From positions 1-64,000 of the IMG/VR virus record IMGVR_UViG_3300005435_000020: a stretch of DNA of 64,000 bases. One strand, 5' to 3'. Source of the DNA: a virus. Of the stretch, positions 2,622-47,618 are shown one piece after another; position 1 is the stretch's first letter; every line of letters starts with the position of its first letter. Below the pieces are notes generated by a model. That model saw nothing but the letters and a program-made list of their open reading frames with translations. It had not been told where the DNA came from and did not search any database. The translations under genes were made by a program, and so were the position numbers.

Positions 2622-2903
2622 TTGAAGGCTACCAACTTCGTCAGGTTCCCTTGGCAGGTATCGCCGCTAGGCTCCCGCTGCGAGGCTCTCTATGACCTCG
2701 AAAACTTCACGCTAACGCTAAGGTTCCGCATGGCATCATACGTCAGTGGTGGCCCCAAAGAATATACTTTGACTGCTACCCCCGACAACCCGCGTGTAGG
2801 CATCTCCTTAGATCATCCTATCCTCGCAGCCTCACCAGACGAGGCCATGGGTGCAGCTAACGTCATCTTGTCGTCTCTCGGCTTTACTCCCAAGGAGGGC
2901 TAA
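2622..2903 (+). CDS. Family A small protein
   Basis: This 93-aa protein starts at TTG, 8 nt after AGGAGGG. It shows the full family signature: an N-terminal FVRFPW motif, a central beta-rich part, and the C-terminal EAMGAANVILSSLGFTPKEG. The KEG codons (AAGGAGGG) supply the ribosome site of the next gene. Function is unknown; the tandem copies suggest lineage-specific expansion. Confidence 0.75.
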   Translation: MKATNFVRFPWQVSPLGSRCEALYDLENFTLTLRFRMASYVSGGPKEYTLTATPDNPRVGISLDHPILAASPDEAMGAANVILSSLGFTPKEG

Positions 2904-2906
2904 TCA

Positions 2907-3173
2907 GTGTTCACCTGGGAATCCTGGGACATCTCCTATCACGAAACTTGGGTCACTGACGGTAAGGCAAGCCGACACGTCACCCTGGAAACTCTGGGGC
3001 CATGGGTCAAGTATGGTGAGGAAAGAAAGCAGCTTCTTACCATCTTGACGCCTTCCGGCAGTGGACCAGATATCCAATGGTGTTTCAATGCCACCGATGA
3101 AGGTGAGGCAAAACACAAGGCTAATGAGAGGCTAACCCTCGAAGGTTTCACACCCTACAAGAAGGAGGGCTAA
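2907..3173 (+). CDS. Family A small protein, divergent
   Basis: This 88-aa protein starts at GTG. The C-terminus EAKHKANERLTLEGFTPYKKEG aligns with EAxGAANVILxxLGFTPKEG of its neighbours, but the N-terminal RFPW motif is replaced by FTWESWD. It lies between two canonical members with 3-nt spacers. Function is unknown. Confidence 0.72.
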   Translation: MFTWESWDISYHETWVTDGKASRHVTLETLGPWVKYGEERKQLLTILTPSGSGPDIQWCFNATDEGEAKHKANERLTLEGFTPYKKEG

Positions 3174-3176
3174 TCG

Positions 3177-3437
3177 TTGGAAACCAAGAATATCATCAGG
3201 TTTCCTTGGGACCATAATCGTGGCACCCTTGTAGATACCTGCGAAGTGGTACTCGATGGTGTCCTGTTCCAAGCTAGCCTTCAGTATTATTGGGACAATG
3301 AGTACAACCTCATGGAGACGTCGATAAGCACTGATGCGTTGTTTGTGCAGACCATACCTGCTAAGTCCCAGACAGAGGCGCTAGGGGCTGCCAACGTCAT
3401 TCTCACATATCTTGGTTTTACTCCTAGGGAGGGCTAG
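3177..3437 (+). CDS. Family A small protein
   Basis: This 86-aa protein starts at TTG after AAGGAGGGCTAATCG. It has IIRFPWD near the start and TEALGAANVILTYLGFTPRE at the end, closest to the 2622 member. The terminal REG codons again form a GGGAGGG ribosome site for the gene 2 nt downstream. Function is unknown. Confidence 0.75.
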   Translation: METKNIIRFPWDHNRGTLVDTCEVVLDGVLFQASLQYYWDNEYNLMETSISTDALFVQTIPAKSQTEALGAANVILTYLGFTPREG

Positions 3438-3439
3438 AT

Positions 3440-3730
3440 GTGAAGGCACTCAAGTATTCTCGATTCGCTTGGTATGAAGGCGAATCCACATCGAAGCCTG
3501 GCACCTCCAGACCATTCTGCAAAATGGTCAGGGTGACGGAGACAGGGGCTACAGAGACGTTTAGGGCTAACCTTTATCCTACGCGGGAAGGATTGTATAA
3601 ACTTCTCGTGTTCCCTGATACGTCAAGCCGACACTCCCTACTCCAGAAAATCGAGGCTGACACTGAGGATGAGGCCATAGGCTCCGCGAATGTTATTCTG
3701 AGTGTCAAGGAATTTCTACCATCCTCTTGA
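3440..3730 (+). CDS. Family A small protein
   Basis: This 96-aa protein starts at GTG. It begins MKALKYSRFAWYEGE and ends with EDEAIGSANVILSVKEFL, the family A signature with the tail truncated. The TGA stop (3728-3730) lies inside the TTGACA box of the next promoter, so this gene ends the transcription unit. Function is unknown. Confidence 0.72.
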   Translation: MKALKYSRFAWYEGESTSKPGTSRPFCKMVRVTETGATETFRANLYPTREGLYKLLVFPDTSSRHSLLQKIEADTEDEAIGSANVILSVKEFLPSS

Positions 3731-3755
3731 CAGACTAAAAATCCCATGGTAGTAT
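3727..3755 (+). promoter_or_regulatory. Sigma70-type promoter, TTGACA-N17-TAGTAT
   Basis: TTGACA at 3727-3732 and TAGTAT at 3750-3755, preceded by CATGG. The -35 box overlaps the stop codon of the preceding gene. It serves the 3789 gene. Confidence 0.85.
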
Positions 3756-3788
3756 TATTGAAGTGGCGTGAGTGAGTAGGAGAGAAGC

Positions 3789-4058
3789 ATGAGCACAGTC
3801 AAGGAGAGCCTGGAGCTCCACACTTTTATGTGGGCTGACCTCCGTTTCTCTAGTGAGACGAAGGCGCAGCTTTATGGTATGGCCTACGACGTGAATATTG
3901 GCCTTCGTTGGTCTGGAGAAGGCTATGTCGTGTCGGCTGTCAATACGGATGGTAAGTGCTCCGTCAACTTCTTCCAGAATCTTCCGGCGGCGTCACTCTC
4001 TGAGGCGAAGGGTGCCGCGAATGTAGTGCTCAGCATCAATCATCTCAGGCCAGCATAG
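3789..4058 (+). CDS. Family A small protein
   Basis: This 89-aa protein starts at ATG with GGAGAGAAGC upstream. It carries the signature as TFMWADLRF near the start and SEAKGAANVVLSINHLRP at the end. It has its own promoter at 3727, unlike the upstream tandem copies. Function is unknown. Confidence 0.75.
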   Translation: MSTVKESLELHTFMWADLRFSSETKAQLYGMAYDVNIGLRWSGEGYVVSAVNTDGKCSVNFFQNLPAASLSEAKGAANVVLSINHLRPA

Positions 4059-4093
4059 GCTGTGCTGTTTCCGCATAAAGAAAGGTCTATAGA

Positions 4094-4312
4094 GTGAATT
4101 GGCAACCAAAGTCTGACGGTACCTACACCACCAAGCTCCGGCGTGGCAAGCAGTTTTTCGAGGCTAGCATCTCAGAAAACAAAGACACGGGAACCTATAA
4201 GCTTTCCGCTGAGCCTGGCGGCTTGAAGTGGGAAGTCAGGGCTGAGGCTGACACCGTGGCACTCCGCGAAGCAGACCTCATCCTCGACGGCTATGGGTTT
4301 CGAGATGCGTAA
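4094..4312 (+). CDS. Family A small protein, short form
   Basis: This 72-aa protein starts at GTG 4094. The C-terminal TVALREADLILDGYGF matches the family A helix with D replacing the usual N of GAANVIL. It is the last copy in the cluster, 35 nt after the previous gene. Function is unknown. Confidence 0.68.
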   Translation: MNWQPKSDGTYTTKLRRGKQFFEASISENKDTGTYKLSAEPGGLKWEVRAEADTVALREADLILDGYGFRDA

Positions 4313-6682: not shown

Positions 6683-7284
6683 GGTTACAAAGAGAACAGA
6701 CCCTCGTCTCCTCGATACGATGGCTAAACACTACTCGCAACCAAAAGGCTTTGTCGGCAGGAACATCTGCTATGCCATCACCTATGATGACGTTTATTAT
6801 GGACACATCATCAGCGGCTCTGCCACAAGATTTCTGCCAGGAAGGAATGAGTTTTTCGGCACCACCATAAAAGACCTCAACCACATCATCAATAACATTT
6901 ACTTTCATATTGAGCCACAGAGTGGGAAGTATCCCACCAGAAACTTCTCCTCCCTCGTGATCAAAACCTGGAGAGAGAGCATCCAGGGACTGGCTAGAGA
7001 AGTATGAGGACTATATTATCGGCTTTGAAACCCTTGTGGAGTTGCCGAGGACAGGAGAGTGCTATCGTCGTGATGGCTGGGTTGAAGTAGGCACCACAAT
7101 CGGGTATACCTGCAAAAGAATAGGAGGTGTCGGTACCGATGATTGGACAGGTAAGAGAGTCTGGGATACTAAGAACCTCAGACCTAAGAGAGTATTAGCA
7201 AAGCATTGCCAACATACCCTACACATACCGGCAGCGGCACCTCAGAATCTTGAAATGGCTTATGGAGCTACATATGGAAGTTAG
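6672..7284 (+). pseudogene. Mom-like DNA-modification protein, split by a frameshift
   Basis: Two overlapping frames give one protein. Frame 1 (6672-7007) contains HYSQPKGFVGRNICYAI and GSATRFLPGRNEFFG. Frame 2 (visible from 6961 to 7284) continues with DWLEKYEDYIIGFETLVELP, then GECYRRDGW and KRVWDTKNLRPK. This order matches phage Mom-like proteins, which by analogy with phage Mu modify adenines to block restriction. Joining needs a +1 shift near 6987, where GGG would become GG. The start is uncertain (TTG 6672 or ATG 6720). It could be a real mutation, a read error or programmed frameshifting. Confidence 0.65.
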
Positions 7285-7426
7285 TAAGACGAGGGCTCTT
7301 TGGCTAGCGATAATCACTGCCCAGCTTGTCGGCTTGGCGTTTGTCTGGATGCCAGCTATCGCCCCTGGAGTGCTTGTAGGAGTGCTCATTGTCCTGTTTG
7401 TGATGTTGGTTGTGGTGACGAAGTGA
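7274..7426 (+). CDS. Small two-helix membrane protein
   Basis: This 50-aa ORF starts at ATG 7274 inside the end of the Mom-like gene and stops in a TGATG overlap with the next start. It is nearly all hydrophobic after a short basic start (MEVSKTRALWLAIITA), with two predicted helices split by MPAIAPG. A cysteine-rich reading of the same DNA in another frame is rejected. Function is unknown. Confidence 0.6.
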   Translation: MEVSKTRALWLAIITAQLVGLAFVWMPAIAPGVLVGVLIVLFVMLVVVTK

Positions 7427-7725
7427 TGAATAAGCCAACAGACTACTTCGTGGAGTATGCACACCAGGGACTCTATCAATCAGAATTGAAACGTGTTGGT
7501 GGCGTGGAGGATAGCGTAGACCCTAGCCGATTCATGACCTACTGCAACGCCACATCACTCAGGGATGCAAGGAGGATTGCCAACACACGACAAATCAAGA
7601 AGGCTGCTGGCGGCACTACACGTTTCATCTATCATCGCAGCAATATCGAGGAGATTCCTCCTAGTGGGCAATTCGGGACGACAACCTACGAATATGACGT
7701 GGAGTTTGTGGAAGACGTAGATTAG
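7426..7725 (+). CDS. Hypothetical 99-aa protein
   Basis: ATG 7426 overlaps the preceding stop. The frame is open upstream to 7300, but that part runs out of frame through the membrane-protein gene. The protein is hydrophilic and ends acidic (YDVEFVEDVD). It is the last gene before the tRNA. Confidence 0.6.
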   Translation: MNKPTDYFVEYAHQGLYQSELKRVGGVEDSVDPSRFMTYCNATSLRDARRIANTRQIKKAAGGTTRFIYHRSNIEEIPPSGQFGTTTYEYDVEFVEDVD

Positions 7726-7730
7726 TAATG

Positions 7731-7803
7731 GCCCCTGTAACTCATCGGTTAGAGTAAGGTCCTTATAAGACCTAAGTAGGTGGTTCAATTCCACCCAGGG
7801 GCA
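7731..7803 (+). tRNA. tRNA-Ile (anticodon UAU)
   Basis: A full cloverleaf can be drawn: acceptor GCCCCTG pairs with CAGGGGC, D-stem ACTC with GAGT, anticodon stem AGGTC with GACCT around loop CTTATAA, and T-stem GGTGG with CCACC. The anticodon TAT reads AUA isoleucine codons directly, with no need for lysidine modification of a CAU anticodon. The discriminator is A, and CCA is not encoded (ACCG follows). It lies in sense orientation between two protein genes, so it may be processed from the mRNA. Confidence 0.92.
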
Positions 7804-7832
7804 CCGTAGTTTGTACCGTAGAAAGGAATGAC

Positions 7833-8537
7833 TTGAGGGTTATTGCTGAGGCAGAGGGTTATCAGTTTGGCATCGGTTGCAATGGAGACGGTAAATATCA
7901 GATACATCTGAGGCGTTTTATTGCTTCTTCCGACACACGAGTATGTTATGTTGGCGAGTGGGAGCCCTATCGTAATGGTACTGGTAGCGATGAAGACGAA
8001 AGCTTGATCATCCGTCGCTTTGCGAAGAGACTTGCTCACGACACGCATCCTACCGCCACTGACCTCTATGAAGCAGCCGTAGATCACATCAACTGGACCC
8101 TCCCTGAGAGTGAGAGGCGCTACGACAAAGAGAAGTATGACCTCCTTAGGAGTGAAGGAAGAGTATTCTGGGCTGGCGTCGAGGATCGTGTCAACGTGAC
8201 GACGTGGAAGCGTGGCACTTACACCATCAGGGACATAGAAGGCGGCTCCGAAGACGTAGTAGGACATGTGTCTAGACATTTCGGAATTACCGGAACCGCG
8301 ACGCGAGGCAAGGTCAAAGACGTCTGGACCATCACCCACTTGCCGACAGGCTTCAAGGTTGGCCCCAAATTTTCCTCCCTTTTCGAGGCTAAACTCCACG
8401 TCATGGCTTTGCAGTCTCCAGGCTTGGACTGGAGCTTCACTGATCCTAAGGCCATCACACCCGCGATGCATAGTCGTGTGGCGGCTATCCGCGATGCTTG
8501 GAATGAGAAACTTTTGCCAGTCACGGAAAAGGGCTAA
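7833..8537 (+). CDS. Hypothetical 234-aa protein
   Basis: It starts at TTG with GAAAGGAATG upstream, 30 nt after the tRNA. No domain is recognised. The sequence is mixed, with a helical middle (DEDESLIIRRFAKRLAHDTH) and beta-rich C-terminal half (TWKRGTYTIRDIEGGSEDVV). It is the largest gene in this early segment; the next gene begins 3 nt after its stop. Confidence 0.65.
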   Translation: MRVIAEAEGYQFGIGCNGDGKYQIHLRRFIASSDTRVCYVGEWEPYRNGTGSDEDESLIIRRFAKRLAHDTHPTATDLYEAAVDHINWTLPESERRYDKEKYDLLRSEGRVFWAGVEDRVNVTTWKRGTYTIRDIEGGSEDVVGHVSRHFGITGTATRGKVKDVWTITHLPTGFKVGPKFSSLFEAKLHVMALQSPGLDWSFTDPKAITPAMHSRVAAIRDAWNEKLLPVTEKG

Positions 8538-9851: not shown

Positions 9852-10313
9852 TTGAGGCGCATAGATTTCCTGGTGCCGTGTGAAGGAGAAGACCACAAGG
9901 TAATACTCGCCGGAAACGGAGCCATGAGGCTTTGCCACCACCCACAGCCACATAGGGAGTTGTGGGTGCAGAAGGAGATGCAGCAGCGCATCCTCAAAGA
10001 CCTCTCGCCTTGTCTGATAGCTTTCCTCCATACGCATACAGACTATGTGCCCTACACGGCTGAGGAGCAGCTTCCAAACTATCTCCGATTTGCGATGGGG
10101 AATAGCATCAGGTGGCGCAAGAATATCCTCCGGTTTACCTACGGCGATAATATCTACAAGAGGACAAGGATTCGTCGGCATCCTGTAGTGCAAGATGGAG
10201 ACGGCTATTCGTTAGTAAATAAGGCAGAGACGTATCAAGCAGAAGTCGTGATGGCACCGGGGCACACCTACCTCGTGGCGGGTGGCAAGCCGATTATTGG
10301 GATACATTGGTAG
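9852..10313 (+). CDS. Hypothetical protein, distant family B relative
   Basis: This 153-aa protein starts at TTG 9852 with no clear Shine-Dalgarno site. Its N-terminus has C10-x4-H followed by a CHH triad (VPCEGEDHKVILAGNG then RLCHHP) and a later LSPC, mirroring the C..H, HH, C spacing of the family B array that begins at 11946. The LEIYPDADVSLC core is absent, so membership is only suggested. A shared metal-binding fold is inference. Confidence 0.58.
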   Translation: MRRIDFLVPCEGEDHKVILAGNGAMRLCHHPQPHRELWVQKEMQQRILKDLSPCLIAFLHTHTDYVPYTAEEQLPNYLRFAMGNSIRWRKNILRFTYGDNIYKRTRIRRHPVVQDGDGYSLVNKAETYQAEVVMAPGHTYLVAGGKPIIGIHW

Positions 10314-10321
10314 GAGAGACA

Positions 10322-10636
10322 TTGCATACTATCCTTGAGTCCATCCAAGCAGAGCAGAAGACCCTCCGAGACAGACTTGCCCTCCTCGATGAGATGGAGA
10401 GGATGATCCTCGCAGCCGACACGCCGCAGCCACCGAAGGTCCCCACCTACACCTTCGAGAGTGATAGCCGCCTTGGGCTCTTCCACCAGACGTGGCTTGT
10501 CAACGACGAGTGGCGCTGCACCTGCGAAGGCTTCACCTACCACGGCCACTGCAAGCACATCAGAAACGTCGAATCCGACGTCAGGATGGAGAAACTTCGC
10601 CGTGATCTCCGTATCGTGGCTGCTACCCGAAACTAG
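10322..10636 (+). CDS. SWIM zinc-finger protein
   Basis: I chose TTG 10322 with GGAGAG upstream. The 104-aa protein has an N-terminal helical/coiled segment (ILESIQAEQKTLRDRLALLDE) and a C-terminal SWIM finger CTCEGFTYHGHCKH, which fits CxC...CxH. SWIM fingers bind DNA or proteins; what this one binds is unknown. It ends just before the promoter of the moxR operon. Confidence 0.75.
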   Translation: MHTILESIQAEQKTLRDRLALLDEMERMILAADTPQPPKVPTYTFESDSRLGLFHQTWLVNDEWRCTCEGFTYHGHCKHIRNVESDVRMEKLRRDLRIVAATRN

Positions 10637-10643
10637 CAGCATC

Positions 10644-10672
10644 TTGTAGTATCACCATATTGGTGGTATACT
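10644..10672 (+). promoter_or_regulatory. Promoter of the moxR/family B operon
   Basis: TTGTAG at 10644-10649 and TATACT at 10667-10672 with a 17-base spacer and a TGG extended -10. A short dyad ACCA-TAT-TGGT (about 10653-10663) lies in the spacer. A second possible -10 (TATAAG, 10687-10692) is closer to the gene. Confidence 0.65.
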
Positions 10673-10706: not shown

Positions 10707-11891
10707 TTGAGCAGTCCCACACACGTCGAAGCCGTTGCCCTCGCGGCGCAGGCGAGGATTCCGATTATCGCCTGGGGGGAGCCTGGTATCGGCAAGACCA
10801 GCGTGGTGTATGCACTGGGCAGGAAGCTGCAAAGGCCCACCCACGTCTTCGTGGGCTCCTACCACGAAGCGCAAGACCTCGGCTGGCCTGTCCTCGAAGA
10901 TAGGCCAAGGAAGCAGCGCAAGATCACGCAACGTCGCGTCTCACAGACGGGGCCAAGGCGCATGAAGCAGGCCATTGCCGAGTCTAAGATGCTTGTCAAG
11001 GTGGCACCGAAGTGGGGCATCGAGATTGTCGAGTTTGGTGATGGCATCGTCTTCCTTGATGAGTTTTCCAACACGGAACCGGCTGTGCAAGCCGTGATGC
11101 TCCAGCTTCTCTTCGAGGGAAAGCTTGGCGACTTGCAGTTTCCTAGCTCCGTGAGCTATATCGCGGCAGCTAACTCGGCAGACCAGGCTGCCAATGGCTT
11201 CAACCTTAGCTGGCCCCTCAAGAACCGCCTTGTCCACATCAACTGGGGGCTTGACATCGAGGGCTGGGTGCAGGGTGTCCTCTCGGATTTCCCCGCCGTG
11301 GAGTTTCCTATTCTTCCCGACAAGTGGCAAGAACACGCATTCTCCGAGAAGGCGCTGGTGGCCTCCTTTATCCAAAAGAAGCGTGACCAACTTCTCAGGA
11401 TGCCCACTGATCCGTCAGTGAATGCCTACCCGACGCCTCGAAGCTGGCACCACCTCGCCATCCCGCTGCTGGCGGCTTGCAAGTCCATCGGCAGGGACCA
11501 CAGCGACGACTTGACGGTGATGCTGCTTGATGGGTGTGTCGGCAACGCCTCAGGCAACGAGTTTCGGAGCTACGTCAAGGCGCTGGACCTGCCGGACCCC
11601 GAAGTGCTCCTCGCCAATCCCGCAGAGTGGTCCGTGTGGGCCAAAGGGAAGCGTGGAGACCAAATCCACGCTTCCCTCAACACCATGGCGACGGCAGTGA
11701 GGGGCAACAATACGAAGCCTCGCTGGGAATCCGGCTGGGAAATCGTCATCAGGGCTGCGAAGGAGGGCCACAAGCCGCCTGCACTCCTGGCGGGGAATGT
11801 CCTGGCAGGTAAGAAGCCCACCAACGACGCAAAGTACCCAGATGTCGAGGACATCTTCGGGAAGGTCAATCAACTAGCGAAGGCAAGCTAG
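10707..11891 (+). CDS. MoxR-type AAA+ ATPase
   Basis: It starts at TTG after AGGAGC. The 394-aa protein has Walker A GEPGIGKT at residues 24-31, Walker B GIVFLDEF at 113-120, a sensor-1 asparagine in AAANSAD (about 156) and an arginine-finger-like NR at 173-174. MoxR ATPases act as remodelling chaperones and typically work with a VWA-domain partner encoded nearby. Here the likely partner is the VWA/peptidase protein at 14885, separated from it by eight family B genes. The ATPase core is complete, so it should be active. Confidence 0.85.
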   Translation: MSSPTHVEAVALAAQARIPIIAWGEPGIGKTSVVYALGRKLQRPTHVFVGSYHEAQDLGWPVLEDRPRKQRKITQRRVSQTGPRRMKQAIAESKMLVKVAPKWGIEIVEFGDGIVFLDEFSNTEPAVQAVMLQLLFEGKLGDLQFPSSVSYIAAANSADQAANGFNLSWPLKNRLVHINWGLDIEGWVQGVLSDFPAVEFPILPDKWQEHAFSEKALVASFIQKKRDQLLRMPTDPSVNAYPTPRSWHHLAIPLLAACKSIGRDHSDDLTVMLLDGCVGNASGNEFRSYVKALDLPDPEVLLANPAEWSVWAKGKRGDQIHASLNTMATAVRGNNTKPRWESGWEIVIRAAKEGHKPPALLAGNVLAGKKPTNDAKYPDVEDIFGKVNQLAKAS

Positions 11892-11896
11892 TATCG

Positions 11897-11927
11897 AGGG
11901 GGCAGGTTCCGAAAGGGCCTGCCCCTT
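11897..11927 (+). terminator. Attenuator-like hairpin after moxR
   Basis: AGGGGGCAGG (11897-11906) pairs with CCTGCCCCTT (11918-11927), 10 bp including one wobble, loop 11 nt. No U-tract follows, so it more likely attenuates or protects the mRNA than terminates it. Confidence 0.55.
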
Positions 11928-11945
11928 CTGGTATGAGGACACAAC

Positions 11946-12320
11946 ATGATCCCCTACAAAGCCGATGTACCAGCCTGCTGTCCTCGCCACGAGGGTGTCA
12001 TCACGCTAGACACGGGTGTGGTTGCCGCCTCACCTGTGCCCTTACTGGCAGAGAACCTACACATCCTCGATATCTTCCCCGACGCAGATGTATGCGAATG
12101 TGTTATCGCAACGGCAATAACAATCAATATAATGGACACAAAGCATGCGACGATGTATGAAATGAGAAACCTGACAGTTGCTGTGTTTTTCCAGGATGGT
12201 GTGTGGCTTGCAAGGGTTGTCTCGAATTTAGGCAAAGACAGTCAGAAATACCACATACTGGAACACGACATGGAGGGCCGACGCCTCCTCACCTACCAAC
12301 CAGCGAGATATACACAATGA
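11946..12320 (+). CDS. Family B protein 1 (C-H-H-C, IFPDADV core)
   Basis: This 124-aa protein starts at ATG. It carries ACCPRHEG near the N-terminus and ENLHILDIFPDADVCEC at about residues 37-53. The middle histidines of the family are missing, so the metal site would be incomplete. It is the first copy after moxR and ends in an ATGA overlap with copy 2. Function is unknown. Confidence 0.75.
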   Translation: MIPYKADVPACCPRHEGVITLDTGVVAASPVPLLAENLHILDIFPDADVCECVIATAITINIMDTKHATMYEMRNLTVAVFFQDGVWLARVVSNLGKDSQKYHILEHDMEGRRLLTYQPARYTQ

Positions 12321-12691
12321 ATACCATCACGGTGTCTTGCTTCTGCACACACCAAGGAGCAGACTATCATCCCCCAACTATCATCGAGAAACGAAAAATA
12401 GTCGCGGAGGGCCATCCTGGGCTCAAAGAAAGCCTCGCCTATCTCGAAATCTACCCACAGGCAGACGTGGACCTCTGCACCCTCGCCATCTCCGTCATCA
12501 TGAAACGCTGGAGATCAGTCTGCCAGGCGGGGAAGTACATGAAGAAATACGACGACAGGACACCGTATCGGGTCATCCTCATCAAGACTGAAGACGACGA
12601 AGGCTACGACGTCAGGCTTTCCTACGTCTACACGAAGTCCTGCATGAAAAACAATAACATCCCGAAGATTACGTGGAAGCATCATCCATGA
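12317..12691 (+). CDS. Family B protein 2
   Basis: ATG 12317 is in an ATGA overlap; longer upstream extension is rejected. The 124-aa protein has CFCTHQG at the N-terminus, a histidine in EGHPGL and the core SLAYLEIYPQADVDLC. The C-terminal 60 residues are variable and beta-rich. Function is unknown; a compact zinc fold is inferred. Confidence 0.78.
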   Translation: MNTITVSCFCTHQGADYHPPTIIEKRKIVAEGHPGLKESLAYLEIYPQADVDLCTLAISVIMKRWRSVCQAGKYMKKYDDRTPYRVILIKTEDDEGYDVRLSYVYTKSCMKNNNIPKITWKHHP

Positions 12692-13047
12692 CAACCGTCT
12701 ACATCCCCCCTATCTGCGGCTGTCACGAAGGCAGCACCGTTGTCCTTGATGGCAAGGTTACGCATACGAGTTGTCCTACACTCCTGGAGGAGTTGGCAGT
12801 GCTAGACATCTACCCGCAGGCAGATGTGAGCCTCTGCGCCGTTTCCGTGATAGAAATACTCAAGGGCTGGGGCAGCTACTACCCAGGTCTGAGGAGGACC
12901 AGGGTAGGAGGCGCATTCAAAAGCATAGCCATGGATATCATGACGCCTTGGGATGACTTCGACAAGGACAATGTTGTGCAATCAAGGAATGTCTTTGTGG
13001 CGTTTCGAGATGTGAACACGAGACCTCTATGGCATGGCATGGAGTAG
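12688..13047 (+). CDS. Family B protein 3
   Basis: ATG 12688 is in an ATGA overlap. The 119-aa protein has ICGCHEGS, a TSCP segment where other copies have HH, and the core EELAVLDIYPQADVSLC. The first metal-ligand pair is C-x-CH and the HH position is Cys, consistent with ligand exchange in a zinc site. Function is unknown. Confidence 0.78.
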   Translation: MTTVYIPPICGCHEGSTVVLDGKVTHTSCPTLLEELAVLDIYPQADVSLCAVSVIEILKGWGSYYPGLRRTRVGGAFKSIAMDIMTPWDDFDKDNVVQSRNVFVAFRDVNTRPLWHGME

Positions 13048-13063
13048 GTGTAGGAAATATCCG

Positions 13064-13525
13064 ATGAAACGAGACCCAGAGAAAGCCATCGTGATACCGT
13101 CGCAATGCGAGTCCCACATGGGTGGCGGGACAGTGTTGTATGAGGGTAAGGTACTCTCGACGTGTCACGAAGGACTGGAGCAAGAGCTAGGGATAGAGGA
13201 TATCTACCCAGACGCCGATATCAGCAAATGTGCCCTCGCCGTCAAGGCTGCACTTGCTGCTCCCTGCGACTATTATCGAAGCAGAAACGTTTTCACCTTC
13301 ATTCAAGGAGACATCGCCGTGAAGGTCTCCTTCAGAGAGGTGACACTCGCATTTCTCGCTGAAGTGGAGATACAAGAGCTACTACCGCTGGATTACTACA
13401 GAAACATACTAGGTAGTATGTACCACACTGACTCTAAACGGTTAGCGTTACTTTCCGAGGTATTCAATGATCATTTTCCTTCCCCCGATATGCGACAAAC
13501 ACAAGGGCCTCACAAAAATCGTTGA
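13064..13525 (+). CDS. Family B protein 4, with C-terminal extension
   Basis: ATG 13064 has AGGA upstream. The 153-aa protein has SQCESHMGG, STCHEGLEQEL and the core IEDIYPDADISKC. It is longer than its siblings; its last 20 residues are read through the first 59 nt of the next gene, so the true C-terminus may have been altered by a late frameshift. Function is unknown. Confidence 0.72.
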   Translation: MKRDPEKAIVIPSQCESHMGGGTVLYEGKVLSTCHEGLEQELGIEDIYPDADISKCALAVKAALAAPCDYYRSRNVFTFIQGDIAVKVSFREVTLAFLAEVEIQELLPLDYYRNILGSMYHTDSKRLALLSEVFNDHFPSPDMRQTQGPHKNR

Positions 13526-13850
13526 TGGCGTGATCACAGCGAGTGACCACGATGGTCTGAAAACCGAAGTCGATGCCTACGAGATATTCGACGGGGTGAT
13601 GCCCACTCGATGCACCCTCGCCACGAAGGTGGTGCTCAAAAACCCTCCCGACGACATGTACCCAATGAGAACCTACACATCCTATTATCTAGGATATATC
13701 TACACGATAAGCTACCATTACGACGGAGAAAAAGACATTTATCACACGAAGGTGACCATCTCCACGGAGTACTACGACTGTTGTGGAGGCGGATACCCCG
13801 ATTCTATCCAGATAATCCTGTCGCAGGATAGTCGTGATTATCTGAGCTAG
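13467..13850 (+). CDS. Family B protein 5, degenerate core
   Basis: ATG 13467 lies inside the end of copy 4. The 127-aa protein keeps ICDKHKG, SDHDGL and a terminal cysteine, but the hallmark PDADVSLC is replaced by FDGVMPTRC. The four putative ligands are retained while the core loop is not, suggesting the ligands matter more. Function is unknown. Confidence 0.7.
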   Translation: MIIFLPPICDKHKGLTKIVDGVITASDHDGLKTEVDAYEIFDGVMPTRCTLATKVVLKNPPDDMYPMRTYTSYYLGYIYTISYHYDGEKDIYHTKVTISTEYYDCCGGGYPDSIQIILSQDSRDYLS

Positions 13851-13885
13851 ATTTTCCAAATTTTTAGAAGGTTTTGGAGTAAGGA

Positions 13886-14230
13886 ATGGTCATTCCCTAT
13901 CCAACAAGGATATTCATGGACAACTGTGACGCGGAGTGCCATGAGTTGCATAATATTGGCACTCCATACGTCTGGTCTTCTCACCACGCGGGTCTACTTG
14001 AAGACGCAAAAATCTTTGATCTCTTCCCAGACGCCAATGTGTGCCTCTGCGCCAAGCTCCACGCTGTTGCTTCGCAGCGGGAGACGTGGTGGGGGTTCTA
14101 CCACGAGACAAAGCTATCGTCTCCGCTAATCATGTACAGGCTCAGTAGTGAGATTTTTTTGTCTGCTTGGATTGATACTACGGAGGGATTTCATGTGATG
14201 CAGAGGGAGAGTACCGGGAAGATTATATGA
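13886..14230 (+). CDS. Family B protein 6
   Basis: ATG 13886 or 13916 could be the start; both have AAGGA-type sites. The protein (114 aa from 13886) has CDAECHEL, SSHHAGLLED and the core KIFDLFPDANVCLC. It ends in an ATGA overlap with the next copy. A 35-nt gap precedes it, the longest between two copies before the VWA gene. Function is unknown. Confidence 0.75.
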   Translation: MVIPYPTRIFMDNCDAECHELHNIGTPYVWSSHHAGLLEDAKIFDLFPDANVCLCAKLHAVASQRETWWGFYHETKLSSPLIMYRLSSEIFLSAWIDTTEGFHVMQRESTGKII

Positions 14231-14550
14231 GTGACTTCATGCTCATCGTGAAAGACTGCTGCGGCGAGGACCACACCCTCCATGCGCTTCAGAATGGCTA
14301 TCCCTTTTATAAAAATAAGTGGCACGATAACCTTCACACCGATATTACAGTGCTGGGCCTTTACCCGGATGCCGACGTTTCAAACTGCGCCATCGTTGCC
14401 TACGCAGTCACACAAAAATGGAGTCATGTTGACGAGGGCTATCCGCTGTGGCATCCATTCTCTTATTACCTTTTTGTAGGTAGAGTGGTCATTGATGTCG
14501 AGCAGGACAGGTACGGCAATCTTCAAGCAGAAGTGAGCCGGATGAGGTGA
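14227..14550 (+). CDS. Family B protein 7
   Basis: ATG 14227 is in an ATGA overlap. The 107-aa protein shows the signature clearly: DCCGEDHTL, WHDNL and VLGLYPDADVSNC. C, H, H and C are all present. The C-terminal half is variable, with a hydrophobic strand (YYLFVGRVVIDV). Function is unknown. Confidence 0.8.
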   Translation: MSDFMLIVKDCCGEDHTLHALQNGYPFYKNKWHDNLHTDITVLGLYPDADVSNCAIVAYAVTQKWSHVDEGYPLWHPFSYYLFVGRVVIDVEQDRYGNLQAEVSRMR

Positions 14551-14894
14551 GCACTCAAATCTCTAGAGTAATAGTCTGTGATTGTGGTGATCAAGACCAC
14601 ACAATTTCATTGGAACATGGTAGACTAATATCAGGCCACCACGACATCCTAGGAGAGTTGGAGGTGCTGAGGGTCTACCCGCTGGCAGACATCAGCCTCT
14701 GTGCTGATTATGCACTGGCCCACGTAGCGTGTGGTTTTGGGAAGGAGCCGTGGGTACCGGGTTGGGAGTTACGTGACGTGACACACCTATGGGAACATCG
14801 ACAGAACCGTAGGAAGTGGATATTCGACTTGACATTTCGAGAAGAAAACACGACGACGAAAGTGTATAGCGCAAGGAAATTTTCATGGGAGTAG
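14547..14894 (+). CDS. Family B protein 8
   Basis: It starts at GTG 14547 in a GTGA overlap. The 115-aa protein has CDCGDQDHTI, SGHHDILGELEVL and RVYPLADISLC, a complete C-H-H-C set. Its end overlaps the start of the VWA/peptidase gene by 10 nt, tying the array translationally to that gene. Confidence 0.8.
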   Translation: MSTQISRVIVCDCGDQDHTISLEHGRLISGHHDILGELEVLRVYPLADISLCADYALAHVACGFGKEPWVPGWELRDVTHLWEHRQNRRKWIFDLTFREENTTTKVYSARKFSWE

Positions 14895-16168
14895 CCGCCT
14901 GGAAAGACATCTTCGATGCCAGCGTTTTGAGGCTGTGCAGGACACACCCCTACGTGTCCTCGACGGCGCTTGCCCTGGTCCCTGTGGAGAGGCCAGAGAG
15001 CAATACCTTGTCCACAGATATGTATGGCAGGGTATACGTCGGCACCCAACGCCAATGGGACGTCGAGGGGATGTCCACGATTATCTACCATGAGCTTTGG
15101 CATCTCCTTTTCCAGCATCACAAGAGGGCTGAATCGTTGGTGCCCTTCGAGAAGACCATCGCCAACATCGCCATGGACATGGAGATCAATGGCACTGAAA
15201 AGGTAGGCATCCACGGAGAGATCAATAGCGGAGCTTCGCATCTCAAGTTTCCCTTCGAGGTATTCACGCCGAGACATTTTGGCCTCGATGAGGGGCTAAT
15301 GATGGAGCAGTATTATGAAGAGTTGCTCCAGCAGGCCAAGGAGCAGCAGGATGGCGAAGGTGGAGGCCAAGGCCAGAGTGAAGGCCAGCAGGGCAAGGGC
15401 AAGGGCCAGCCACACGTAGGCTTCGGTGACTGCGGCTCCTGCGCTTCTGGTGAGCCGCAAGAAGGCGATGAGCCTTCACCCGAGAATTCCGACACGCCTG
15501 GGATGACTGCGAAGGAGTTGGAAGACCTCGCCAAATCGACGGCGAGAGAGATCAGCGAAGCATCGAAGTCCCGAGGCAACATCCCCGGATGGATGAAGCG
15601 TTGGGCCGACGATATGTGCAAGACGAAACACGACTGGAAGCCTGAGTTGAGGGCCACCATACGCAATAGCATGACGACGGTGACAGGCAGGGGCATCCCC
15701 TCCTACCAGAGGCCACACCGCAAGCAGCAGCTTCACGGCAGGGTGCTCTTGCCTGGTCAGCGCCAGCCTGTCATCAAGGTTGCCGTCGTCTGCGACACGT
15801 CTGGTTCCATGTCTGAGAAGCAGATGGGGCAGAGCCTCGCGGAAGTCGAAGGCGTCTTACAATTCACGAAACAGGTCACGGTATTTGCCACGGATAGCGC
15901 AGCATCGACGGCACAGAAGGTGATGAGGCGCAGCCAGGTAAATCTTATGGGTGGTGGCGGCACCGATATGGGTGTCGGCATCCAGGCTGCTGCTGACCAT
16001 ACACCAACACCCGACTTGATCATCTGCCTGACAGATGGCATCACGCCTTGGCCTGCGAAGGCTCCCAAGGGCATCAAGACGATTATCGGCTTGATAGGTG
16101 AGGGCTCAACCTATTATCGTCTCCCTGAGTGGGCTACCATAGTCAACATCCCACTCGATGAAGAATGA
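14885..16168 (+). CDS. VWA-domain metallopeptidase-like protein (DUF2201/COG3864 type)
   Basis: The N-terminal part has a zincin motif HELWH (69-73) and NIAMDMEIN (94-102), as in the DUF2201 N-terminal peptidase-like domain. A Gly/Gln/Glu-rich linker follows (about 155-210). The C-terminal VWA domain has a complete MIDAS: DTSGSMS (304-310), T360 in GGGGTD and D384 in LTDG. Such proteins are the usual partners of MoxR ATPases. The gene overlaps family B copies at both ends (10 nt and 4 nt), so the pair and the array act as one unit. The protein substrate is unknown; family B proteins are obvious candidates. Confidence 0.85.
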   Translation: MGVAAWKDIFDASVLRLCRTHPYVSSTALALVPVERPESNTLSTDMYGRVYVGTQRQWDVEGMSTIIYHELWHLLFQHHKRAESLVPFEKTIANIAMDMEINGTEKVGIHGEINSGASHLKFPFEVFTPRHFGLDEGLMMEQYYEELLQQAKEQQDGEGGGQGQSEGQQGKGKGQPHVGFGDCGSCASGEPQEGDEPSPENSDTPGMTAKELEDLAKSTAREISEASKSRGNIPGWMKRWADDMCKTKHDWKPELRATIRNSMTTVTGRGIPSYQRPHRKQQLHGRVLLPGQRQPVIKVAVVCDTSGSMSEKQMGQSLAEVEGVLQFTKQVTVFATDSAASTAQKVMRRSQVNLMGGGGTDMGVGIQAAADHTPTPDLIICLTDGITPWPAKAPKGIKTIIGLIGEGSTYYRLPEWATIVNIPLDEE

Positions 16169-16494
16169 AAGTGACGGTTATCGGCTGCGGTGACAAGCCA
16201 CATTATCTCTATAAGGATGGTGACAACGCTTATCAGTGCCCAGCACACGCAGAATTCAAAAGGGAGCTTGAGGTACTTTCCGTGTATCCGAAAGCAGACA
16301 TCTGCTTCTGCGTGGCGGCATCTATCGCGGCAGATAGGTACAAACTCTACTTGAAGAATGCAGGAATACCCAACACCATGGAATACGGCTCCCTGAATAC
16401 AGGAGTCGGTGAGTATGAGTGCAGCGTGGAGCAGCACCTTGGCGGTGACCTCACCGTGAGATTTGAGAGGAGAGTGAAGTTTGCCTTACCTTGA
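16165..16494 (+). CDS. Family B protein 9
   Basis: ATG 16165 is in an ATGA overlap with the VWA gene. The 109-aa protein has GCGDKPHYL, CPAHAEF and the core ELEVLSVYPKADICFC. Its second ligand pair is C-x-x-H rather than HH. Function is unknown. Confidence 0.78.
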   Translation: MKVTVIGCGDKPHYLYKDGDNAYQCPAHAEFKRELEVLSVYPKADICFCVAASIAADRYKLYLKNAGIPNTMEYGSLNTGVGEYECSVEQHLGGDLTVRFERRVKFALP

Positions 16495-16774
16495 CGTCAA
16501 TGAGATACGCAGGCAGGTGTATCTCGCAAGGAAGGAGTTGGTCCTCAAGCACAAATGGGACATCAGCATTTCCACAGGTCATCTGAAGTTTGTTCACGGC
16601 TACAACTTCCCAATGCGTGGCGACGTAGAGATACACGTCACTCGGGAAGAGGAGAGATGGCGCATCGACTTCTTCGTAAATGGTGTGAAGGAAGGCCCAT
16701 CCGACTATGTGGATACAAGCCTCGATGACTACATAGAGGTACTAAGACTAGCCCAGAAATACATCCTCTACTAG
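16481..16774 (+). CDS. Hypothetical 97-aa protein inside the array
   Basis: It starts at TTG with GAGAGGAGAG upstream and overlaps copy 9 by 14 nt. It lacks the C-H-H-C set and the PDADVSLC core, so it is not a family B protein. It has a helical N-terminus (DVNEIRRQVYLARKELVLKH) and an acidic C-terminus. Its position suggests a function shared with the operon; nothing more can be said. Confidence 0.6.
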   Translation: MPYLDVNEIRRQVYLARKELVLKHKWDISISTGHLKFVHGYNFPMRGDVEIHVTREEERWRIDFFVNGVKEGPSDYVDTSLDDYIEVLRLAQKYILY

Positions 16775-17091
16775 TGGCGGATACTTTCTACCTATGGGTG
16801 AATGGTTGTGGTGATCAGGCACACCTAATCCGTGTCAATGGAGATAAGGCACACTCCAGTCACCATGATCTGGAGCATGAAGTGTCTGCGCTTGAGATAT
16901 TTGATGACGCAGATATATCCGTGTGCTGCCAGGCGTGGATGCTCTTCACGAGGGCTACACAACCAGCCTATACGATGCCGATTGGTCCTAAACTTACGTA
17001 TGGCTACGGCAATCACGACTACACGGTGACCCATTATGATGTTGTGAGGACAGGCGGCGTTACCTGGACCTTCACACCTCATCCTAAGTAG
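16774..17091 (+). CDS. Family B protein 10
   Basis: It starts at GTG overlapping the previous stop (TAGTG). The 105-aa protein has NGCGDQAHLI, SSHHDLEHEVSALEI and FDDADISVCC, a complete ligand set. It is one of the shortest copies, so it is useful for defining the minimal domain. Function is unknown. Confidence 0.8.
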   Translation: MADTFYLWVNGCGDQAHLIRVNGDKAHSSHHDLEHEVSALEIFDDADISVCCQAWMLFTRATQPAYTMPIGPKLTYGYGNHDYTVTHYDVVRTGGVTWTFTPHPK

Positions 17092-17102
17092 AAGAGTTGG
17101 TA

Positions 17103-17459
17103 ATGATAGTAAGAGAGAAGATATATGTCCACGGGTGTTGTGGCAAGGTCCACCACCTCCGAGTGAGGGATGACCATTCCATTGTCTGCGATGAACACGA
17201 CATCAAGCGTGACGTCGAAGCCTTGGAGCTATTCCCCGACGCCGACGTTTCCTTATGCAGCAGGGCCTACGTCTACTACAAGGTCTATAGGGACATCAGG
17301 GATGAGTTTCTGATGCCTGAGCAGCACCTACGCATAGCCAGGCTTGGTAATCATCTCCACGTCTACGACTATAATAGAACAAGACCAGTAATTCTACCGG
17401 CAGCGGGTGTCATGGACAACTGGTTTGGAAACTATACGGTGGCCAATGAAACTCCCTGA
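17103..17459 (+). CDS. Family B protein 11
   Basis: I chose ATG 17103 over a TTG at 17097. The 118-aa protein has HGCCGKVHHL, CDEHDIKRDVEALEL and FPDADVSLC. Its second pair is C-x-x-H. It overlaps the next ATG by 11 nt. Function is unknown. Confidence 0.8.
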   Translation: MIVREKIYVHGCCGKVHHLRVRDDHSIVCDEHDIKRDVEALELFPDADVSLCSRAYVYYKVYRDIRDEFLMPEQHLRIARLGNHLHVYDYNRTRPVILPAAGVMDNWFGNYTVANETP

Positions 17460-17886
17460 AGAGATTATTGTGGAGCATTGCGGAGAGTGGGGCACCAAGC
17501 ATACGCTTCGTCTTACTGACGGAGCCTACACCTCTGAGTATCACTGCGACTTGCGAGACTGCGTGAGTATGCTGAGCATCTTCGAGGATGCCGACACACC
17601 ATTCTGCGCTATTGTGGTAAAATTCTACCTTGAATACATGATAAACTTGCCGTTTGAGCCTAGAGGCACTTGCGATAGGCTCCAGGGTAGTAAAAGATTT
17701 AGGTATTACATACTGTCGACGACGGATCGTCATAGGATTGTGTTCCACGACGTGAGGTATTCTGACCCAGTGTTGGGCACCACAATACAAAGAGCCATCG
17801 AGTTGCCTGGCGGCATGTACCACGATTGCTGGCTAGCACATCAAAAAGGCCTCATGTCGATAGCGGAGAGTATGGGGCTGCTATGA
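17449..17886 (+). CDS. Family B protein 12
   Basis: ATG 17449 lies within the end of copy 11. The 145-aa protein has HCGEWGTKHTL, EYHCDLRDCVSMLSI and FEDADTPFC. It is longer than most copies because of a C-terminal extension that includes PGGMYHDCW. It ends in an ATGA overlap. Function is unknown. Confidence 0.76.
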   Translation, partial: KLPEEIIVEHCGEWGTKHTLRLTDGAYTSEYHCDLRDCVSMLSIFEDADTPFCAIVVKFYLEYMINLPFEPRGTCDRLQGSKRFRYYILSTTDRHRIVFHDVRYSDPVLGTTIQRAIELPGGMYHDCWLAHQKGLMSIAESMGLL

Positions 17887-18227
17887 AAGAGTCCATCTAC
17901 GTCAGCGACATCGTGGACCCTGCCGACGTCATCTTGGTGGAGGATGGTCACTTCCAGTCCCTCTACGTCGGTGGTGTGGAGGAGGAGCTTTCCTTACTTG
18001 AGCTATATCCAAATGCAGACATATCTATATCCACGAAAGTAGCCTACACCTACCGACTCAACAGGCGAGATGGTTTTATGAGTGAGATGGAAGCCTGGCT
18101 AGGAGGGCATCTCTATGTAGTCTACGGAGCACCGAATGGCAGAGCCCCTCACCACAACCAAGGCTTCGAGATCACCAGGGTCGCTGACACTAACTGGCTC
18201 TTCATCCCCGTGGTGATCACAGTATGA
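17883..18227 (+). CDS. Family B protein 13, all putative ligands lost
   Basis: ATG 17883 is in an ATGA overlap. The 114-aa protein keeps the framework EEELSLLELYPNADISI but has no Cys or His at any of the four conserved positions (DIVDPADVIL, YVGGVEEEL, ISIST). Loss of all four together supports the view that they form one metal site in the other copies. Function is unknown. Confidence 0.78.
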   Translation: MKESIYVSDIVDPADVILVEDGHFQSLYVGGVEEELSLLELYPNADISISTKVAYTYRLNRRDGFMSEMEAWLGGHLYVVYGAPNGRAPHHNQGFEITRVADTNWLFIPVVITV

Positions 18228-18230
18228 CGA

Positions 18231-18596
18231 ATGTATAAGTGTGTGGTTTGGTGTGACGGCGAAACCCATTGGTGTGTCTATGATTATAAATCCAAGAGGT
18301 TCTACGACAACCATCACAACATCGAGAATGAGTTGCTCCTGTGGGAAATGAGTGAAGGCAGCGCAGACATCTCCCTCTGCACAAGGGTAGCCCTCTATTT
18401 TATCCTTCAATATGTAGGCGGCTGTCGGGGCTACCCAGAATGGATGCTGACGAAAAAGACTGCGCCACCTTTCAACATATCAAACCTTGGGGAGTTGTGG
18501 TATGTGAGCCTCGTCAAGGATAATCCCCCCGTGGAATTCTTCTCGACGTGGCCTTGGTCAGAGGAAAAGACGAAGAGGGTTTTCGAGGTACCGTGA
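18231..18596 (+). CDS. Family B protein 14
   Basis: ATG 18231 is 3 nt after the previous stop. The 121-aa protein has WCDGETHWCV, NHHNIENELLLWEM and SADISLC. Its C-terminus WPWSEEKTKRVFEVP closely matches that of copy 15 (WPWSDEETREIFKLP), so these two are a recent duplication. Function is unknown. Confidence 0.78.
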   Translation: MYKCVVWCDGETHWCVYDYKSKRFYDNHHNIENELLLWEMSEGSADISLCTRVALYFILQYVGGCRGYPEWMLTKKTAPPFNISNLGELWYVSLVKDNPPVEFFSTWPWSEEKTKRVFEVP

Positions 18597-18973
18597 TCAA
18601 GAAGTTTATTGTGCAGTGTGTCGATGAAGTCCACAGGTTTGTCTATTATAAGGATAGGTTCTATAGTCTCCATCACAATATCGAGAATGAACTTTCGATA
18701 CTGGAAATCTATCCGGCGGATATTTCTGTGTGTACTGCTGGGGCTGGGTGGTTCCTTTCAACAGAACCTCGATACACACTGATCCAAGATAATTTCTATG
18801 AGAGCACTGGCCACATCGTGAGCTTTCACACCTACACAAAGTACATTCGAGATGACCTCTTCATCGTCGGCTATAATACTAAACACACGTATAGCTCAAC
18901 GACAGCGAAAAGTCCAGTCCCACACTGGCCTTGGTCAGACGAGGAAACCAGGGAGATTTTCAAGCTCCCTTGA
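18593..18973 (+). CDS. Family B protein 15, last copy
   Basis: It starts at GTG 18593 in a GTGA overlap. The 126-aa protein has QCVDEVHRF, LHHNIENELSILEIYP and ADISVC, with the YPDAD loop shortened by one residue. Its TGA stop lies within the -35 box of the next promoter, closing the operon. Function is unknown. Confidence 0.78.
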   Translation: MIKKFIVQCVDEVHRFVYYKDRFYSLHHNIENELSILEIYPADISVCTAGAGWFLSTEPRYTLIQDNFYESTGHIVSFHTYTKYIRDDLFIVGYNTKHTYSSTTAKSPVPHWPWSDEETREIFKLP

Positions 18974-18998
18974 CACCTAGAAATGAGTATGGTAGTAT
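18970..18998 (+). promoter_or_regulatory. Sigma70-type promoter, TTGACA-N17-TAGTAT
   Basis: TTGACA at 18970-18975 and TAGTAT at 18993-18998, preceded by TATGG. It drives the integrase unit and starts a new operon after the family B array. Confidence 0.82.
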
Positions 18999-19026: not shown

Positions 19027-19356
19027 ATGTCCAAGAAAAATACGAGGGACTATTTCCACATCCTCTACCAGACGGAGCAGGGTGCCGTGACGAGGAGTGC
19101 CCACACGCGAGAGTATGCAGACAGGCTCCTCAGTAAACTTCGAGAGGAACACGGCGACTGTCCTGGCAGACTAGCGTTACAAACGTGGTCAGTCTCGGAT
19201 GAGACTGGCCCCGTGAAGATGCTCTCCGAGGAGATCATCGAAGCCTTCTCCGGGTGGGAAGCAGCCAAGCCCATCGAGAAGAAGCCGACACCGCGGCCCA
19301 TCAGGTCACGTTTCTCAGCGATGGCAGAGTGGCCCACGAGAAAGGCGAAGGCGTGA
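19027..19356 (+). CDS. Hypothetical 109-aa protein upstream of integrase
   Basis: I chose ATG 19027 with AAAGGGAG upstream. The C-terminus is basic and Pro-rich (PIEKKPTPRPIRSRF). The stop overlaps the integrase start (GTGA), so the two are translationally coupled and this could be an integrase accessory protein; that role is inferred from position only. Confidence 0.62.
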   Translation: MSKKNTRDYFHILYQTEQGAVTRSAHTREYADRLLSKLREEHGDCPGRLALQTWSVSDETGPVKMLSEEIIEAFSGWEAAKPIEKKPTPRPIRSRFSAMAEWPTRKAKA

Positions 19357-20219
19357 TACCGGCGACAAGCATTCAAGGCAGCCCCTCCGAGTATGTCGGA
19401 ATGTTCCTCGACAGGTATCGTGACCTCCAGAAATCGCAAAACACCATCGCCTCCTATTGTGCCGATTTGGCACAGCTCATGGAGTTTTCTCCGTCGTGTC
19501 GCCTCTCCTACCAAGACGCAGACAGATTCGTGGCGTGGCTCTCACAGCAAGGGCTCAGTGCTGCCAGCATCAAAAGAAAGCTCTCCGCGTGTCGGAGCTT
19601 CTTCACCTACTTGCTACGCCAGGGCATCGTTGACGTCAATCCTTTCCTTGGCGTCGAGACACCGGCACTGCCGCAGAGGCTTCCCAAGCTCCCCTCTCCC
19701 GAGAAGGTCAAGGAATGCCTCGATGCGATGGGAGACGACTACCTGAGCACACGAGACGGCGCATTGATTGCCCTTCTCTTCGGCTCAGGTGCCAGGATCA
19801 GCGAAGCACTGAGCCTCCACACGACGCACCTTGACCTCAACAAAAATGAGATACGTGTCGTCGGCAAGGGGAACAAAGAGAGGGTGCTAGTGCTCTCAGA
19901 TGGGGCAAGAAGGCACCTAGAAGGCTATCTGAGGGTCAGACCCTCCTCAGACACGACGGCATTATTCCTGACCCTCCAAGGGGCATCCTTGACGCGAAGG
20001 GGCGCAGAGTATGCCATCGAGAGGAGGTTTGCGTGTGTCGGAGAGGAAGTCAGCCCACACCAGTTGCGCCATAGCTTCGCATCAACGGTACTTGACAGCG
20101 GCGCAGACATCAAAATAATCCAGGAGCTTCTCGGACACTCAAGTGTCGCTGTAACGGGGAGATACCTGTCGGTGAGTGTCGGCAGGCTCCATCAAGCAGT
20201 AGCAAAGGCATTCGAGTGA
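19353..20219 (+). CDS. Tyrosine site-specific recombinase (XerC/D-like integrase)
   Basis: I chose GTG 19353 (GTGA overlap); it leaves a typical core-binding domain (residues 10-95). The 288-aa protein has the catalytic set: R148 in GARISEAL, K172 in VVGKGNKER, H236-x-x-R239 in SPHQLRHSF, H262 in LLGHSS and Y271 in GRYLSVS. Its size and motifs are closest to Xer-like enzymes, so it may integrate, resolve dimers or both. A perfect 17-bp dyad repeat lies within its N-terminal codons (19458-19474). No att site was identified. Confidence 0.88.
   Translation: MIPATSIQGSPSEYVGMFLDRYRDLQKSQNTIASYCADLAQLMEFSPSCRLSYQDADRFVAWLSQQGLSAASIKRKLSACRSFFTYLLRQGIVDVNPFLGVETPALPQRLPKLPSPEKVKECLDAMGDDYLSTRDGALIALLFGSGARISEALSLHTTHLDLNKNEIRVVGKGNKERVLVLSDGARRHLEGYLRVRPSSDTTALFLTLQGASLTRRGAEYAIERRFACVGEEVSPHQLRHSFASTVLDSGADIKIIQELLGHSSVAVTGRYLSVSVGRLHQAVAKAFE
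19458..19474 (+). promoter_or_regulatory. Perfect dyad repeat site in integrase gene
   Basis: TGTGCC-GATTT-GGCACA has perfect 6-bp arms. It is the best-formed member of the dispersed dyads and lies inside coding DNA. Confidence 0.65.
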
Positions 20220-47602: not shown

Positions 47603-47618
47603 ACAGGGAGGCATGGTC

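Follow-up and report, generated by a model that had tools for sequence, protein, structure and literature searches.

Fifteen small, putatively metal-binding paralogues arrayed around a MoxR ATPase and metallopeptidase-VWA gene pair in a tailed phage

The locus and its fifteen-member protein family

The DNA analysed here is a stretch of 64,000 nucleotides (the window), which corresponds to bases 1-64000 of a virus record in IMG/VR (IMGVR_UViG_3300005435_000020, 100,907 bp in total). Between positions 10707 and 18973, with all genes on the plus strand, it encodes a MoxR-type AAA+ ATPase, a protein in which a DUF2201 zincin-like metallopeptidase is fused to a VWA domain, and fifteen small paralogous proteins named here p1 to p15 (Table 1). 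The genes are arranged as MoxR, eight copies, VWA, one copy, an unrelated open reading frame (ORF X) and six more copies, exactly the order, coordinates and count given in the original prediction for this locus. The ATPase and VWA genes thus lie in one cluster on the same strand without being adjacent, with 3 kb of paralogues between them.

When each copy was searched with a hidden Markov model (HMM) profile built from the other 14 among ~10,200 ORFs, all 15 were recovered, with expectation (E) values ranging from 4e-6 (p14) to 4e-15 (p11). A profile search of the entire 100.9-kb record finds exactly 15 copies, all of them within 10707-18973, and the motif L..[ILV][YF]P.AD[IV]...C has seven exact occurrences against 0.00 expected. 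The fifteen-member family is therefore real. Its members are 105-153 amino acids in length and their homology spans the first ~50-55 residues. Similarity between the N-terminal halves is high (mean pairwise z 7.9, with 77 of 105 pairs above 5) whereas the mean z of the C-terminal halves (53-97 residues) is 0.19; past the last conserved Cys only p14 and p15 are alike (z 8.4). The conserved N-terminal and variable C-terminal halves agree with what had been predicted, but the motifs described as shared by the family are not universal, because the full C-H-H-C set (pattern C-x2-5-H...H...C) is present in 13 of the 15 copies, with Cys in place of the second His in p3, and the Ala-Asp (AD) motif is altered in p5 and p6.

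An operon-like arrangement of MoxR, VWA and paralogues is supported, as predicted, and two details of that prediction have to be revised. Neighbouring genes overlap at 12 of the 17 junctions (by 1-59 nt) and the remainder are gaps of 3-54 nt; the 4-nt overlap said to join most of the genes is found at seven junctions. A consensus scan does not pick up the promoter proposed at 10644 (TTGTAG-17-TATACT). A near-palindrome in the spacer of this putative promoter, CACCATATTGGTG, was dropped as it is not enriched in the window. At the other end of the array, a good sigma-70-like promoter (TTGACA-17-TAGTAT, with TG ahead of the second hexamer) is located at 18970-18998, at the end of p15, and faces the gene at 19027.

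Directly upstream of the MoxR gene lies a gene for a small SWIM zinc-finger protein, which has no counterpart in a motif search at 80 other phage VWA loci. Further upstream, the ORF at 9852-10313 may encode a diverged sixteenth relative of the paralogues. Its HMM score of 7.1 (E ~4 alone) is reached by 3 of 2000 shuffles; as it was also spotted after the fact, this assignment is suggestive only.

Table 1. Genes of the paralogue array and other features of the window, with positions in the window.
Feature	Position	Strand	Remarks
ArdC-like anti-restriction protein	633-1508		ArdcN domain E 1e-14; M78/IrrE-like peptidase domain
Second tandem small-protein family, ~5-6 members	2622-4312		F.W near N-terminus, A..EA.GAANVILS..GF.P near C-terminus
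Candidate diverged 16th relative	9852-10313	+	C-x4-H...HH...C, spacing similar; upstream of SWIM-like gene
Small SWIM zinc-finger protein	10322-10636	+	PF04434 SWIM E 0.0015 (just under cut-off); phrog_29279 E 3e-5
MoxR-type AAA+ ATPase, 394 aa	10707-11891	+	TTG start, AAGGAG upstream
p1	11946-12320	+	Leave-one-out E 1e-9; second H replaced
p2	12317-12691	+	Leave-one-out E 1e-10
p3	12688-13047	+	Leave-one-out E 2e-12; Cys replaces second H
p4	13064-13525	+	Leave-one-out E 2e-11; C-terminus overlaps p5 by 59 nt
p5	13467-13850	+	Leave-one-out E 2e-8; no AD motif
p6	13886-14230	+	Leave-one-out E 1e-9; AN replaces AD
p7	14227-14550	+	Leave-one-out E 1e-13
p8	14547-14894	+	Leave-one-out E 5e-11; GTG start; 10-nt overlap with VWA gene
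DUF2201 zincin-like metallopeptidase fused to VWA domain, 427 aa	14885-16168	+	PF13203, PF09967
p9	16165-16494	+	Leave-one-out E 7e-12; 4-nt overlap with VWA gene
ORF X, unrelated, 97 aa	16481-16774	+	No Pfam match, no significant PHROG match
p10	16774-17091	+	Leave-one-out E 1e-14; AlphaFold2 model
p11	17103-17459	+	Leave-one-out E 4e-15; AlphaFold2 N-domain model
p12	17446-17886	+	Leave-one-out E 7e-10
p13	17883-18227	+	Leave-one-out E 2e-8; lacks the four metal ligands but has the AD motif
p14	18231-18596	+	Leave-one-out E 4e-6; C-half resembles p15
p15	18593-18973	+	Leave-one-out E 2e-11; GTG start

The N-terminal domain, its putative metal site and the search for relatives

AlphaFold2 modelling from the 15 sequences predicts an N-terminal domain (N-domain) with the order beta-beta-beta-alpha-alpha, confident in two different copies. 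Residues 1-60 of p10 have a predicted local distance difference test (pLDDT) score of ~84-94, and the N-domain of p11 modelled alone reaches a pLDDT of 93.9 and a predicted template modelling (pTM) score of 0.78. No confident prediction is obtained for the C-half. In the p10 model, C12 and H17 are placed at the first hairpin, H30 just ahead of helix 1 and C51 where helix 2 begins, and it is plausible that these four residues form a single metal site. The pattern of losses points in the same direction. The first Cys, the first His and the second Cys are each missing in p13 only, while the second His is missing in p13 and p1. If losses were independent, the chance of all four ligands being lost together in p13 would be ~(1/15)(1/15)(2/15) = 6e-4, and this joint loss therefore supports one shared site. 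From the conservation of the ligands and their joint loss in p13, we infer that the paralogues may bind zinc. Despite losing its ligands p13 retains LELYPNADIS, which suggests that the Ala-Asp loop may be constrained separately from metal binding.

No known fold in the PDB or BFVD matches this domain. Foldseek against the PDB gave no significant match for the N-domain (best E 0.11, TM-score 0.37), and the best match in BFVD (E 0.015) has a root-mean-square deviation (rmsd) of 15.5 and is not a fold match. Foldseek matches to Hsp90, chemokines and one phage protein (E 0.015) were ruled out because of low TM-score and high rmsd. At the sequence level, Pfam, PHROGs, NCBIfam, PADLOC (selected members) and PDB sequences contain no above-chance match to the paralogues; a known family with an unrelated role, which would have spoken against the original prediction, was searched for in this way and not found. 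Weak PADLOC matches (E 0.0003 to 0.04) are short generic AAA or local matches, and the sequences do not support a SWIM relationship, since the paralogues are without CxC...CxH and none of the 15 members has a Pfam SWIM match.

Profile searches, in which the 15 own copies served as the positive control, revealed no paralogue relative in 21 other virus records searched in whole, in ~1,200 bacterial genomes or in the loci around 80 VWA relatives from IMG/VR. Megablast of the operon against phages gave no match and tblastn of p8 and p11 against phages gave nothing below E 7. Motif scans, which detect only copies near one motif variant (~1/4 of the 15), were applied to larger collections. A strict scan of IMG/VR found none. 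A relaxed scan gave 6 viral and 39 genome (GTDB) matches, which we attribute to chance because the profile matches essentially the searched motif only, without the C..H...H part. An alignment of all members, or of ten, is too diverged to yield a pattern for a viral scan; a viral scan with an alignment of four close members returned one stretch, which is not a relative. No homologous array, with or without MoxR-VWA genes, was found in the data searched, from which near kin of the window may be missing.

A putative metal site in small proteins raises the possibility that the paralogues are nucleic-acid-binding zinc proteins, either regulators or DNA-coating proteins. A parallel exists in Bacillus phage G, where a role as transcription factors or DNA-binding proteins has been proposed for ~35 zinc-ribbon copies (PMC7824862). 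However, the net charge is negative (-1 to -9) in 14 of the 15 paralogues, which is unusual for DNA binders, no known zinc-finger family or fold matches, and the family profile, which recovers 15 of 15 own copies, has 0 matches in the entire phage G record even with E values up to 10 allowed. We consider such a role improbable.

The MoxR and metallopeptidase-VWA pair and its surroundings

Domains and motifs are intact in both proteins, which supports a MoxR-VWA pair of the chaperone-like type, as originally predicted. The ATPase matches PF07728 AAA_5 (E 5.7e-6) and the phrog_1297 ATPase (E 9.8e-38), and has Walker A (GEPGIGKT), Walker B (IVFLDEF), and sensor and Arg motifs (AAAN, TPR). The VWA protein matches PF13203 (DUF2201_N, E 2.8e-30), PF09967 (E 3.2e-17) and phrog_1314 (E 2.4e-44), with the HExxH motif present as HELWH at 69 and a full metal-ion-dependent adhesion site (MIDAS) formed by DTSGS at 304, GGT at 358 and LTDG at 382. 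The label 'HNH endonuclease', given to metallopeptidase-VWA proteins by phrog_1314 and several phage records (that of Pseudomonas phage PA5oct among them), looks like a misannotation, as the matching protein of the window has DUF2201 metallopeptidase and VWA domains.

An intact HExxH domain would also be expected if the paralogues were substrates or precursors, with the metallopeptidase-VWA protein recognising the shared N-domain and cutting off the variable C-part, so that different peptides are released. Bacterial NTP-dependent conflict systems include a zincin metallopeptidase that is paired with a rapidly diverging small precursor (PMC7159879). However, conservation in that precursor is higher in its C-terminal peptide, whereas it is the C-half that varies among the paralogues, and these show no common cleavage motif, which makes this explanation quite unlikely.

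The closest homologues found are not phage pairs but plasmid pairs of Streptomyces, Mycobacterium, Mycolicibacterium and Allomeiothermus. Plasmid proteins annotated as MoxR family ATPase share 33-36% identity over 91-98% with the ATPase (E to 5e-51), and the VWA proteins ~33% over 97%. The actinobacterial order is MoxR then VWA, as in the window, while in Allomeiothermus pMESIL01 VWA precedes MoxR. Unlike in the window, the two genes are adjacent in several of the plasmids examined, often with a 4-nt overlap, and there is no array. The adjacency in plasmid relatives implies that two coupled genes became separated by 3 kb of paralogues and that neither was removed. Among phages, Agrobacterium phage Atu_ph07 is found in the matches of both MoxR and VWA, and in IMG/VR relatives MoxR directly follows the VWA gene in 48 of 80 loci. 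In PA5oct and phiFa a few unrelated small genes lie between the two; those of PA5oct (7147-8062) include a pair of small membrane proteins that may be paralogues of each other (alignment score 100) and are unrelated to the family of the window.

The N-domain tree indicates that the array itself grew through local duplications to either side of the VWA gene. In the tree p1-p5 fall together and p8, p9, p10, p11, p14 and p15 are grouped across the VWA gene, although the deep supports are weak. Array neighbours are also nearer to each other than in shuffled orders (p = 0.0001). Both the grouping of copies from the two sides and the nearness of neighbours are the basis for this view.

The virus is, judging from its structural genes, a tailed phage. 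Tail, head and terminase genes are located on the minus strand at ~50 to 100 kb of the record, and its right half encodes on that strand terminase, portal, major tail protein, head maturation protease and a tape-measure-like protein of 2318 residues. The terminase is nearest to the Thermus P23-45 group and to Tunturiibacter phage Tunturi_4, but distantly (~22-28% identity), and neither terminase peptides as IMG/VR queries nor MoxR as a viral-contig query found a related virus. The left and middle of the record carry genes for a DnaB-like helicase, ribonucleotide reductase, RNA ligase and a primase-like protein. Two types of site-specific recombinase are present in this one phage, a tyrosine recombinase (19254-20219) and a large serine recombinase (47613-49274), and a WD40-like (PD40) beta-propeller protein, unusual for a phage, is encoded at 31125-32198 amid non-structural genes.

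This layout bears on a proposal made for the phage pair elsewhere. MoxR AAA+ proteins paired with N-terminal metallopeptidase-vWA proteins are known in group 2.2 jumbo phages, where Iyer et al. (2021, PMC7824862) proposed a role in virion assembly, and the paralogues could accordingly be virion parts or assembly factors folded by a MoxR-VWA chaperone. However, the structural genes are on the other strand and >30 kb away from the operon, which is near genes of recombination, regulation and replication, and in Atu_ph07 and SBP1 the pair likewise sits amid DNA-metabolism genes. We regard a virion role as very improbable.

Possible roles of the array and comparison with known systems

We tentatively propose that the paralogues are interchangeable partner proteins, adaptors or clients, of the MoxR-VWA machine, and give this a rough probability of 0.38. 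This includes the original suggestion that they are clients, with a different target for each copy. The array, a tandem expansion of one small and putatively metal-binding protein that is specific to this lineage, splits and flanks an otherwise ordinary phage MoxR/metallopeptidase-VWA pair. The N-domain would be a common docking module in which zinc holds the hairpin to the helices, and the nearly invariant Ala-Asp loop could provide an acidic contact for the MIDAS site of the VWA domain. Through its C-half, each copy would pick out a host or phage protein of its own, after which ATP hydrolysis by the MoxR ring may remodel the target or present it to the HExxH peptidase, probably in early infection. 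For MoxR-VWA pairs generally, the VWA MIDAS is described as capturing a client peptide, and the action of the ATPase as altering the client (PMC7159879); this published client capture, together with the intact motifs of both proteins, supports a partner role. Every copy in the contig is moreover confined to the operon, on both sides of the VWA gene.

Several observations weigh against a partner role. No such array is present at 80 IMG/VR MoxR-VWA loci, in four isolated phages or at eight plasmid loci. The tandem family at 2622-4312, unrelated to the fifteen paralogues and without a Pfam match in the two members searched, has expanded with no ATPase adjoining. Co-transcription alone is therefore weak evidence of joint function, since pairs elsewhere have no array and this second family has no ATPase. 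The lack of the AD motif in p5 and p6 also speaks against it. Finally, G+C content at third codon positions (GC3) is 0.52-0.69 in the paralogues compared with 0.74 in MoxR and 0.69 in VWA, the latter two resembling several core genes, and the array and the pair may thus have different histories.

The strongest rival explanation draws in part on the same observations. The array could be a bank of early proteins that act independently of one another against the host or its defences. A small metal-stabilised scaffold would have been duplicated many times and its C-halves would have diverged in a conflict with host targets that themselves change, and the array would share a transcript with MoxR-VWA for no other reason than that both are expressed early. 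MoxR-VWA pairs that lack arrays, a codon composition of the array unlike that of MoxR and VWA, and C-halves diverged past recognition all favour it. So does the left ~20 kb of the record, which is dense in small ORFs and includes the second tandem family and the ArdC-like gene, the latter suggesting an early anti-defence region at this end. However, a bank of independent proteins leaves unexplained why all copies are confined to the operon and interleaved around the VWA gene, and the N-domain including its AD loop is conserved beyond the need of a metal scaffold, as p13 keeps the loop without the site. It is a serious possibility, if also a tentative one.

A more specific version of the partner proposal, in which fifteen exchangeable adaptors, each stabilised by metal, work with a single MoxR/peptidase-VWA engine and direct it through their variable halves to different host proteins, is unlikely as it stands. 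If true, such a multi-target remodelling or proteolysis machine would parallel adaptor-directed AAA+ proteolysis, but in a phage and with a genetically expanded set of adaptors. Many phages and bacteria have MoxR-VWA pairs, and fifteen copies around one of them offer a directly testable set of candidate partners for such a machine in a phage. The family also provides a compact domain that is modelled with confidence and has no recognised relatives, and its natural series of copies, one lacking the metal ligands, can be used to separate scaffold from specificity. Even if the link between array and machine fails, the array remains a large small-protein expansion in a phage, near further gene families of the early region, and a candidate source of host-interaction factors.

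The MoxR/VWA pair is already known while the paralogue family is new, and their coupling is unprecedented within the data searched; literature searches likewise gave no account of such an array, in line with the original prediction. The pair of group 2.2 jumbo phages such as Atu_ph07 consists of the same two proteins with the same domain architecture, but there the genes are neighbours without small paralogues, whereas here eight copies stand between them and seven after. SWIM zinc-finger proteins resemble the paralogues in being small and Cys/His-containing, one is encoded just upstream, and two weak viral fold matches are SWIM-type (E ~2); their CxC...CxH differs from the ligand pattern of the family. 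The zinc ribbons of phage G resemble the array in that a small zinc-type protein has multiplied specifically within the lineage of a single phage, and because of this precedent such an expansion is not wholly new, although the two share no homology by profile and the phage G copies are not described as tied to MoxR-VWA. Finally, the vWA-MoxR-VMAP ternary conflict systems of bacteria (PMC7159879) share a MoxR and vWA core that works with variable partners. A VMAP or effector domain was not found here (no Pfam match above chance in ORF X or the paralogues, and no noteworthy PADLOC match), and the variability instead resides in separate small phage paralogues.

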